From Bacteroidaceae bacterium (lineage in GTDB: Bacteria; Bacteroidota; Bacteroidia; Bacteroidales; Bacteroidaceae), in assembly GCA_017547385.1 (NCBI GenBank), contig JAFYPU010000012.1, forward strand, positions 27,702 through 91,701: a stretch of 64,000 nucleotides of DNA. Reading direction: 5' to 3'. The position numbers and the translations under genes are program-made. Below are positions 8,326 to 11,088 of the stretch, piece by piece (positions within the stretch are counted from its first letter, which is position 1; every line of letters starts with the position of its first letter). The notes below the pieces were generated by a model that did not search any database, was not told the DNA's origin, and saw nothing but the letters and a program-made list of their open reading frames with translations.

Positions 8326-8408
8326 GCAAATCTTCTGCCCCATTCAAGGAAGCTTCGTGCACTTTGGATTTTTATTGAAGCCACGCACAACTTTCCCCCT
8401 GCCGATGC

Positions 8409-8478
8409 CGGAACATCTGCAGTGCTTGCAGAATTTTCCGCAAGCACTGCAGAAAATTCTGCAAGCACTGCGCATTTT
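8409..8478. repeat. Family A REP-like palindrome, copy 2
   Basis: catctgcagtgcttgcag, spacer aattttccg, caagcactgcag, aaaattctg, caagcactgcg: alternating copies of CAGTGCTTG and its complement that can fold as nested hairpins. Confidence 0.8.
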
Positions 8479-8612
8479 CCCGAAAGCATCCCTCATTTTT
8501 CGGCAAAGTGACTGCAACGACGAAAAATGCTCATCGGATTATCCCACAGTGATGCTAAAAATGCTTAACTTCGGCACGAAAACATAAAAGAAACTTATAC
8601 ATCACCGAGGAT

Positions 8613-10583
8613 ATGGAAGCACAAATAGACGGAAAACACTCCCTGCTGCCTGTGGGCACGCTGCTTTTTCACGGCACTTATCGCGTGGTGCGCCACTTGG
8701 CCTCCGGCGGTTTTGGCAATACCTACGAGGCTGTGGACACGCAGTTGGGCGATTCGGTGGCCATCAAGGAGTTCTTTCCTAAGCAGCTCTGTGGCCGCAG
8801 CAGCGAGGGTGGTACCGTAACGCTGCTGAGCACCGACTGCGGCGAGCTCTTCACGCAGCTGCGCACCAAGTTCAAGAAGGAAGCCACGCGCATCCGCAAG
8901 CTCAACCATCCGCACATCGTGCGCGTGCTGGCTTATTTCGAGGAGCAGGGCACGGCTTTCTATGCCATGGACTTCCTCCGGGGCGAAAGCCTCTCGGCAC
9001 GCATGAAGCGCACCGGCCGTCCGCTCACTGAGACTGAGGTGCGGCGTTATCTGCCCCAGGTGCTCAGTGCGCTGAAAGAGATGCACGCCAAGGAGTTGTG
9101 GCATCTCGACCTCAAGCCCGGCAACATCATGATCAACGAGCGCGACGAAGCCGTGCTCATCGATTTCGGCGCGAGCAAGCAGTTGCGCACCGAGGAGGGC
9201 GTCTCTGTTTCCACTTCGCTTAGTTGTGCCTACACACCCGGCTATGCGCCGCTCGAGTTGGTGGATCAAAATTTGGAAAAATTCGGTCCGTGGACCGATC
9301 TCTATTCTCTCGGTGCCACGCTTTACAATCTCCTCACCGGGGTGCGTCCGCTCTCACCCTCACATCTCATTCAGGGCGAACAACTCGCTTTTTCGCCCTC
9401 CGTTAGCACCGCTATGCAGCAGCTCATCACTTGGCTGATGCAGCCCGTAATGACCAAACGGCCGCAGAGCGTGAGCGAAGTGGAGGCATGGTTGGCAGAA
9501 GCGAGTGGGGCTGTGGCAGATACGCCTTTAAACAATGAAGAGCACTACCCTCAGCCCGAAACCATGCGTCCCGAGTCTGTCAGCACTGAATGCGTGGGTA
9601 TGCCGGATCAGGTAACGATTCCCAAGGACCGTGGCACTACCCTCCCGGGTGGTACACCGGTTGTTGAAAAAGAGGAAGCCAATGCCGGTAAGTCGGTTCC
9701 GGCTGCGCCGAAGAAATCTTCAAACCAATGGAAGTGGTTGTTAGGTATTGCTGTGGCAATTGCTGTGATAACAGGAGTTACGGTGAATAGATGCACCGCC
9801 GGTGGAGGAAGTTCTGCAGAGAATACAGAGGGAGATTCTTTGGCAACAGATAGTGTTGTTGCAACAATTGTTGTTCCGGATAATTGTCCTGAAGTAATAA
9901 AGAAACTTGCAGAAAATATGGTCCGCGTGGAAGGCGGCACATTCACCATGGGTGCCACGGCTGAGCAGGGTAGCGATGCTGACAACGACGAGAAGCCCGC
10001 TCACCAAGTAACGCTGAGCACTTACTACATTGGTAAGTATGAAGTTACGCAGGCGGAATGGCAAGCCGTGATGGGCACGAACCCTTCTGAGTTCAAGGGC
10101 GACAATCTGCCCGTTGAGCGAGTGAATTGGGACGATTGCCAGGAGTTTATCCGCAAGCTGAACGAACTGACGGGCAAGCAGTTCAGGCTGCCCACGGAGG
10201 CGGAGTGGGAATATGCCGCCCGTGGCGGGAATAAATCAAACAGAACAAAGTATGCCGGCGGCAGCGACATCGACAATGTGGCGTGGTATGGCGAAGACAG
10301 CAACAGCCCCACGCACTCTGTGGGACAGAAGCGTGCCAACGAATTGGGCCTTTACGATATGACGGGCAACGTGTGGGAATGGTGTCAGGATTGGTTTGGT
10401 TATTACAGCAGTGCTTCTCAGACGAATCCGCGAGGCCCTGCCACCGGCGACTGTTGTGTGTTGCGTGGGGGCAGTTGGTGCATGGATGCGCGGTGCTGCC
10501 GCCTCTCGTTCCGTAGCTACGGCGACCCCGGCCTCGGGGGCGACCACTGCGGGCTGCGCCTCGCCCTCCTCAGTTTACAATGA
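8613..10583 (+). CDS. Ser/Thr kinase - TM - SUMF1/C-lectin-fold protein with DGR-like variable C-terminus
   Basis: A 656-residue fusion. Residues 22-295 are a Hanks-type kinase: glycine loop GGFGNTYEA (32-40), VAIK with K52, HLDLKPGN with catalytic D166, DFG at 184-186. A 70-residue linker leads to one membrane helix (about 374-391), so the kinase is cytoplasmic and the C-terminal domain outside. Residues 436-656 are a SUMF1/FGE-sulfatase (C-type-lectin-like) domain, from VRVEGGTFTMGA to GGSW...GLRLALL. The tail from GGSW (619) matches the layout of DGR variable proteins and its codons are overwhelmingly NNC (see findings). FGE-type catalytic cysteines are not at the usual spacing, so a ligand-binding role is more likely than enzyme activity. 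No reverse transcriptase or template repeat is in the window. Confidence 0.9.
   Translation: MEAQIDGKHSLLPVGTLLFHGTYRVVRHLASGGFGNTYEAVDTQLGDSVAIKEFFPKQLCGRSSEGGTVTLLSTDCGELFTQLRTKFKKEATRIRKLNHPHIVRVLAYFEEQGTAFYAMDFLRGESLSARMKRTGRPLTETEVRRYLPQVLSALKEMHAKELWHLDLKPGNIMINERDEAVLIDFGASKQLRTEEGVSVSTSLSCAYTPGYAPLELVDQNLEKFGPWTDLYSLGATLYNLLTGVRPLSPSHLIQGEQLAFSPSVSTAMQQLITWLMQPVMTKRPQSVSEVEAWLAEASGAVADTPLNNEEHYPQPETMRPESVSTECVGMPDQVTIPKDRGTTLPGGTPVVEKEEANAGKSVPAAPKKSSNQWKWLLGIAVAIAVITGVTVNRCTAGGGSSAENTEGDSLATDSVVATIVVPDNCPEVIKKLAENMVRVEGGTFTMGATAEQGSDADNDEKPAHQVTLSTYYIGKYEVTQAEWQAVMGTNPSEFKGDNLPVERVNWDDCQEFIRKLNELTGKQFRLPTEAEWEYAARGGNKSNRTKYAGGSDIDNVAWYGEDSNSPTHSVGQKRANELGLYDMTGNVWEWCQDWFGYYSSASQTNPRGPATGDCCVLRGGSWCMDARCCRLSFRSYGDPGLGGDHCGLRLALLSLQ
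10461..10580 (+). other. Putative DGR variable repeat (VR) with IMH-like 3' end
   Basis: Codons from 10479 to 10550 are 17 of 24 of the form NNC, including seven in a row at 10515-10535, and this stretch has only 7 adenines in 72 bases. That is the footprint expected when AAC-type template codons are mutated at A. The GC-rich, A-free end from 10551 (gggctgcgcctcgccctc) has the position and composition of an initiation-of-mutagenic-homing (IMH) site. Confidence 0.6.
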
Positions 10584-10642: not shown

Positions 10643-11088
10643 CCTCCGAATGGTGCTTCGCCCCTAAAGTAGGGGAGATGCCCGTAGGGCAGAGGGGTAT
10701 GAAAAAATCATTTGCAGAAGTATCGTTTCCCGTTTGTTCATACCCCTCACCCGTTCCGGAAGCTCCCCTACTTTAGGGGAGCAGTAGCCGTCCGGCTGCT
10801 TGTTGCCCTGCGGTGCGTTTCCCGTGTTCGGACATTCCGGATGGCACTTCGCCCCTAAGGTAGGGGAGATGCCCATAGGGCAGAGGGGTATGAAAAAGTG
10901 TATTATATTCTTAGTCAACGTATTCCGTTTGTTTATACCTCCTCCGCTTCGCTCGTCCTCCTACCTTAGGAGGACAGCCCCATCCGGTCTGCCTGCATCC
11001 TTCTTGCTGTATTCAGCGTTCGGACAAGCCGGATGGGGCTGCTCCCCTAAGGTAGGGGAGCTCCCGGAACGGGTGAGGGGTATGAATA
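10643..11088. repeat. Family C repeat cluster, copies 2-6 in alternating orientation
   Basis: Five copies: 10643-10703 (+), 10737-10797 (-), 10836-10893 (+), 10930-10988 (-), 11024-11087 (+). Each ends in GAGGGGTATGAA or its complement, has a CCCCTA..TAGGGG-type first hairpin (CCTCCTA..TAGGAGG in the fourth), and starts at CCGGATGG or a variant. Second hairpins differ: gcccgtagggc, cccgttccggg, gcccatagggc, cgcttcgctcg, cccggaacggg. The 589-bp stretch 10584-11172 holds nothing else. Confidence 0.85.

Follow-up and report, generated by a model that had tools for sequence, protein, structure and literature searches.

The window, that is the whole 64,000-nt stretch of DNA analysed here, encodes a protein with a kinase domain, a single hydrophobic helix and, at its C-terminus, an FGE/SUMF1 domain (Table 1). 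The VAIKE, HLDLKPGN and DFG sequences are kinase motifs. Residues 373-391 form the highest 19-residue hydropathy peak of the 656-residue protein and probably cross the membrane. The FGE assignment is a match at the level of the family (Pfam and the solved structure 2y3c). Among 28 solved relatives, the closest by sequence is 2y3c, the variable protein 1 of Treponema denticola (E 1.4e-39), whose C-terminal stretch can be aligned with the tail of the kinase-FGE protein. That protein, TvpA, is described as a target of a diversity-generating retroelement (DGR) (PMC4891356, PMC4159848). The resemblance to known SUMF1/C-lectin DGR targets pointed out in the initial annotation, which had also correctly placed GGSW at residue 619, finds its best solved counterpart in TvpA: the gene has the same layout, a C-terminal FGE domain with a variable repeat (VR) at its end.

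Table 1. Features of the kinase-FGE gene (positions in the window).
Feature	Position	Strand	Basis
Kinase - membrane helix - FGE gene, 656 aa	8613..10583	+	ORF; Pfam Pkinase 4.7e-38, FGE-sulfatase 1.4e-51
Protein kinase domain, residues 23-285, with VAIKE, HLDLKPGN and DFG motifs	8679..9467	+	Pfam, sequence
Hydrophobic helix, residues 373-391	9729..9785	+	Hydropathy
FGE/SUMF1 domain, residues 434-651	9912..10565	+	Pfam; solved relative 2y3c
Variable repeat (VR), GTGTTGCGTGGGGGCAGTTGG to last variable codon	10458..10550	+	Copies, G012 template comparison
Constant GC-rich 3' end of repeat, IMH-like, stop codon included	10551..10583	+	Sequence

The variable codons of this repeat are concentrated between 10479 and 10550, where 17 of 24 codons are NNC and 7 of 72 bases are A; all seven codons of 10515-10535 are NNC. 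A recount returned each of these values as first reported. The remainder of the gene contains 198 NNC codons out of 622 and has an A fraction of 0.232 (binomial P 1.0e-4 for NNC and 0.003 for A). From 10551 onward, 21 bases pass before the first A, and the terminal segment is near-identical in both other copies found in the same genome and in all five copies of a sister species. With its GC-rich composition and A-free first 21 bases it resembles an IMH, as proposed earlier, and may act as one.

The assembly holding the window (G000; 2.35 Mb in 34 contigs, 86.5% complete) contains 11 FGE stretches matched by PF03781. At the DNA level the tail matches two further genes near full length, C13 (82%) and C4 (81%), and the remaining FGE genes have more diverged tails. 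The three similar tails have the blocks GTGTTGCGTGGGGGCAGTTGG, GCGCGG, TGCCGCCTCTCG and GGGCTGCGCCTCGCCCTC in common and differ chiefly at the first two bases of NNC/NNT codons. Three features are not explained by changes at A: the kinase-FGE codon at 10482 is ATG where the other copies have NNT; codon 11 is CGG in all G000 copies and AGG or GGG in the sister species; and the C13 copy is two codons shorter than the others, its gap having been placed by hand in the codon alignment. A second kinase-FGE gene of this genome (L006, contig C2; FGE match 1501-2094, downstream to 2151) has a tail which departs from the GLRL frame inside its VR-like part and looks frame-shifted.

The sister species (G008, same genus, assembly 81% complete) carries five copies of the VR block and a sixth, weaker match at 75%. 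One of the five lies in the syntenic ortholog of the window gene, with flanks aligning at 83.7-91.2%, and this cross-species pair was used in place of strain variation. The kinase and linker (window 8332-9793) are 91.8% identical to the ortholog. In the first 310 codons, the pair shows 9, 4 and 31 differences at first, second and third positions, respectively, and in the 32 VR codons 11, 12 and 4. The 185 FGE codons preceding the VR are intermediate (28, 16 and 53), with 34 nonsynonymous codons out of 185 compared to 11 out of 310 in the first part of the gene. In another G008 copy, 335953, the VR block is found in a gene with a different kinase. Compared without gaps, its flanks have 9-27 of 60 bases in common with the other copies, and the 24 bases from GGGCTG onward are identical in all three comparisons; with gaps allowed, its upstream FGE part is 34-37% different. 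The VR homology block has abrupt edges in this one unrelated gene. Separately, an intergenic repeat, CCTAARGTAGGGGAG (10663-11060), is present in four copies in the window, three on the + strand and one on the - strand (none in 100 shuffles), and similar repeats occur at the same place in G008.

As in DGR systems, the VR copies differ mainly at template-A positions and largely agree elsewhere. The template-A columns were taken from the template of a relative of the same genus (G012, see below) and not derived from the copies under test. Within G008, 27 of 30 A columns vary compared to 10 of 81 other columns (P 2e-14); the corresponding values within G000 are 18 of 30 and 6 of 81 (P 2e-8). Restricting the test to positions 1 and 2 gives P 5e-12 (G008) and 8e-7 (G000). 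Since selection on exposed residues could also yield a template-A pattern, third positions were compared in three non-overlapping copy pairs, each with 41 VR codons. They differ in 0 of 41 VR and 100 of 180 upstream codons in the first pair (P 5e-13), 2 of 41 and 54 of 181 in the second (P 3e-4), and 2 of 41 and 44 of 181 in the third (P 0.003). Changes at positions 1 and 2 are more frequent in the VR than in the upstream part for the second and third pairs (P 0.004 and 0.002); the first pair (292946-335953), whose upstream parts are very unlike each other, shows no excess (VR 15 of 41, upstream 71 of 180; P 0.69).

Among same-dinucleotide VR codons within each genome, 0 to 11.5% differ at the third position, far below the 16-51% of the upstream FGE parts, which points to recent copying. 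Moreover, codons 29, 34 and 35 end in C in each of the three G000 copies and in T in each of the five from G008. Because these framework bases differ between species and not within them, we infer that VR copying continued after the G000/G008 split in at least one lineage. Clustering by genome is partly seen in the upstream FGE regions as well, which indicates a contribution from recombination among paralogs. In the 16 hypervariable codons, the bases at the first two positions are 88 A, 75 G, 71 T and 20 C.

Could such a pattern arise without a DGR, from diversifying selection on exposed FGE residues combined with gene conversion homogenising the rest? The same structural positions could be exposed across all FGE proteins, and the partial grouping of upstream parts by genome is what gene conversion is expected to give. 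However, gene conversion should homogenise every base, variable or constant, and selection should leave its mark on third positions as well. Of the codons changed at position 1 or 2, the third base has also changed in 14 of 181 in the VR and in 325 of 543 upstream when the 13 within-genome pairs, which are non-independent, are summed, and in 2 of 20 and 15 of 35, respectively, in the ortholog pair (P 0.015). We therefore hold this explanation to be very improbable. Still less credence can be given to the notion that the tail is a GC-rich, C-ending stretch of no special meaning, produced by chance or local composition. It is true that the constant codons flanking the variable ones are likewise GC-rich, but only 8 of 17,695 24-codon windows (ATG-started ORFs of at least 200 aa, both strands, whole window) reach both the NNC and the A values, and all 8 start within this tail, from 10479 to 10506. 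The comparative pattern among the copies and the ortholog also speaks against it.

Intact DGRs with the same FGE framework are present in relatives. In G012 an AAC-rich template is clustered with genes for an FGE protein, an HRDC protein (Pfam 1.4e-5) and a reverse transcriptase (RT; 2.9e-11). Of the 132 bases compared, 20 are mismatched between its template and VR. All of the first 16 mismatches are at A; the other 4 are confined to the last six bases, at the end of the repeat. The 16 changed A are G or T in this VR, never C, and some template A have become C in the VR of G342. At least two members of the same family, G342 and G238, have an RT, a template and an FGE target, with 14 of 15 and 17 of 17 mismatches at A, respectively. 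A third, G375, has an RT and a template of which 21 of 39 mismatches with one VR are at A; that VR is probably not its own target, and a second VR looks closer. Template-like repeats are found near an RT in G052 and G053 (same order), and the HRDC gene was confirmed in G052 and in one of the two G053 loci. The templates of these relatives read RGGSWNNN..NC...NRNNN, with small departures in G053, and those of G012, G342 and G238 translate to RGGSWNNN..NC...NRNNN.P.N.NNN.GLRL; they are close to the template predicted beforehand from the VRs. Five aligned RTs, four from these DGR loci and one from G004, have GLPIGNLTSQ in common, the SQ of which we take to be a mark of DGR RTs.

Several other loci were noted in the course of these searches. 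A kinase gene without an FGE domain (L071, 4218-6122) adjoins the RT and template of G012. Template-like N-rich tails occur in L249 (G415) and L250 (G268), each with no RT match in the 8 kb covered, and are possible DGR remnants or remote templates. Within the genus, RT genes of G004 (L098/L102), G028 (L099/L103) and G072 (L092) lie near AAC-rich stretches unlike the FGE type and possibly belong to other DGRs.

The initial annotation saw no RT or template in the window, and this extends to the full assembly, which gives no RVT_1 match and no template-like DNA match. The genome search that it had proposed for both elements, and whose failure it had named as one half of a refutation, was negative in G000, in an assembly just 86.5% complete. 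RVT_1 has no match in G008 (81% complete) either. The G012 RT as query, the HRDC protein, and a five-row RT profile which does detect G012 and G053 likewise found no match in G000 or G008. No template is among the DNA matches in the two assemblies, from searches of which one missed the known G012 template. ORFs of at least 110 aa on contig C13 of G000, read by eye, include no RT- or HRDC-like gene beside the VR. At E 1e-5, the inferred template matches G000, G008 and G019 only, among 58 genomes of the genus. The family search gave a match in 18 of 399 genomes, including these three, with two candidates scored per genome, and an RT match was present in 3 of the 10 family genomes whose regions were inspected. 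Both searches failed to report the G012 template, which was found with a slightly different query, and their absences are therefore weak; a template belonging to G000 or G008 itself should nonetheless have matched the inferred query no worse than the VRs.

The search was extended to other sequence collections. The exact framework pattern has 8 matches in genome contigs (Methylobacterium, Chloroflexi, Parvibaculum (2), Curtobacterium, Roseovarius, Candidatus Binatia and Azospirillum), which we attribute to chance on the basis of the record titles. In viral contigs, the framework pattern and the template pattern have 0 matches each. The RT alignment retrieves 482 relatives from viral contigs, with a best identity of 43% among the best 80 of the 482; the DGR cassette may be carried by a phage.

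A single cassette would be missed by chance in both assemblies in about 3% of cases, by simple arithmetic from their completeness (86.5% and 81%), and repeats and mobile carriage make such a double absence likelier than this. We do not claim a complete DGR for G000; the tail alone is assigned, as a VR of a known kind. It seems rather likely that the cassette is present in the cell, either unassembled or mobile. The VRs could also be fossils of a past DGR whose RT and template have since been lost in the G000 lineage and in G008, leaving a frozen set of FGE sensors. The absence of RT, HRDC gene and template from either assembly, and the low figure for a chance absence, fit such a loss, and T. 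denticola isolates without complete DGR systems, with target genes taken as remnants, are reported (PMC4891356). The small third-position difference of the VRs relative to the upstream FGE parts, indicative of recent copying, and the species-specific bases of codons 29, 34 and 35, indicative of copying that outlasted the split in one lineage or both, argue against it. We consider a fossil state possible but doubtful; it is a variant of the preferred explanation which concerns the present state, and the two are not mutually exclusive.

The preferred explanation is that the 3' end of the kinase-FGE gene is a DGR variable repeat served by a cassette outside this assembly, and we regard this as very probable. 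The reading first made from the sequence of the tail is supported by the silent sites common to the copies, the variation at template A, the rewritten VR of the ortholog, the edges of the block, and the RTs and templates of the relatives' DGRs. In the proposed mechanism, a template-repeat RNA with AAC/AAT codons, from the cassette absent from the assembly, would be reverse-transcribed with random changes at A. The mutagenised cDNA would then replace the 3' ends of at least three G000 FGE genes, anchored at the constant GC-rich 3' end, so that each target would keep its FGE framework and gain a new set of about 15 residues. The more specific proposal that the two sister species keep VR-bearing FGE sensors, the membrane receptor-like kinase among them, rewritten by a DGR outside the core genome, for example a DGR that a mobile element carries and that works in trans on genes of the host, appears distinctly unlikely.

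The T. denticola DGR is reported to include FGE targets, an HRDC accessory gene and remote targets (PMC4891356). The system described here resembles it in its C-terminal FGE target with the VR at the end, in its best solved relative (2y3c), in targets far from a cassette, and in the HRDC gene of G012, G052 and one G053 locus. Unlike in T. denticola, the target domain forms one protein with a kinase and a membrane helix, and the assembly lacks a cassette. Kinase - C-lectin remote variable proteins are described for cyanobacterial DGRs (PMC7517822). As in those proteins, an N-terminal Ser/Thr kinase is joined here to a C-terminal variable domain of C-lectin type and the paralogs are dispersed; the lineage is another one, apparently Bacteroidota, and the cyanobacterial RT and template share a genome with the target. 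The present gene thus has a remote-target layout, a kinase fused to a variable C-terminal domain with the cassette absent from both window and assembly. In Thiohalocapsa PB-PSB1, VRs of remote targets are reported to match the template at non-adenine sites, from which service in trans was argued (PMC10907252). The VRs described here share this pattern, with A positions taken from the G012 template; of the two systems, Thiohalocapsa is the one with a known template of its own and known metagenome variation. The DGRs of G012, G342 and G238 have their RT and template beside the target, unlike the kinase-FGE gene. Pfam detects no kinase domain in the G012 target, near which a separate kinase gene is located.

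FGE is described as a frequent DGR target domain in human microbiomes (PMC4159848), and RT-first surveys are reported to miss remote targets (PMC8144416). Literature listings and the beginnings of abstracts yielded no paper dealing with this kinase in the group, which carries little weight as a negative, and the kinase-lectin targets found in print are cyanobacterial (PMC7517822). We interpret the product as a membrane Ser/Thr kinase whose outer domain varies in the manner of a DGR target, a case of an already known kind. The G000/G008 pair shows that paralogs and a single ortholog are enough to recognise VRs and to predict a template when the RT is not available; surveys starting from the RT would overlook targets such as this gene.

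A protein built from a single kinase domain, a single hydrophobic helix and an FGE domain at the C-terminus suggests a receptor-like kinase with a diversified outer ligand-binding face. The paralogs C4, C13 and C21-start open with a signal-peptide-like segment, as judged by eye, which fits an FGE domain on the outer side. With this probable topology, the changed residues would sit in the domain beyond the membrane helix, and the choice of ligand could shift while kinase and framework stay the same. If ligand binding and signalling are as the domain architecture leads us to expect, a membrane kinase with an outer domain rewritten by a retroelement would constitute a signalling receptor with a self-generated repertoire. 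A VR-bearing kinase-FGE gene of G008 (L076, contig C9, 9346-11082) has a different kinase and no membrane helix by eye, and its variable FGE domain may therefore also reside in the cytoplasm.
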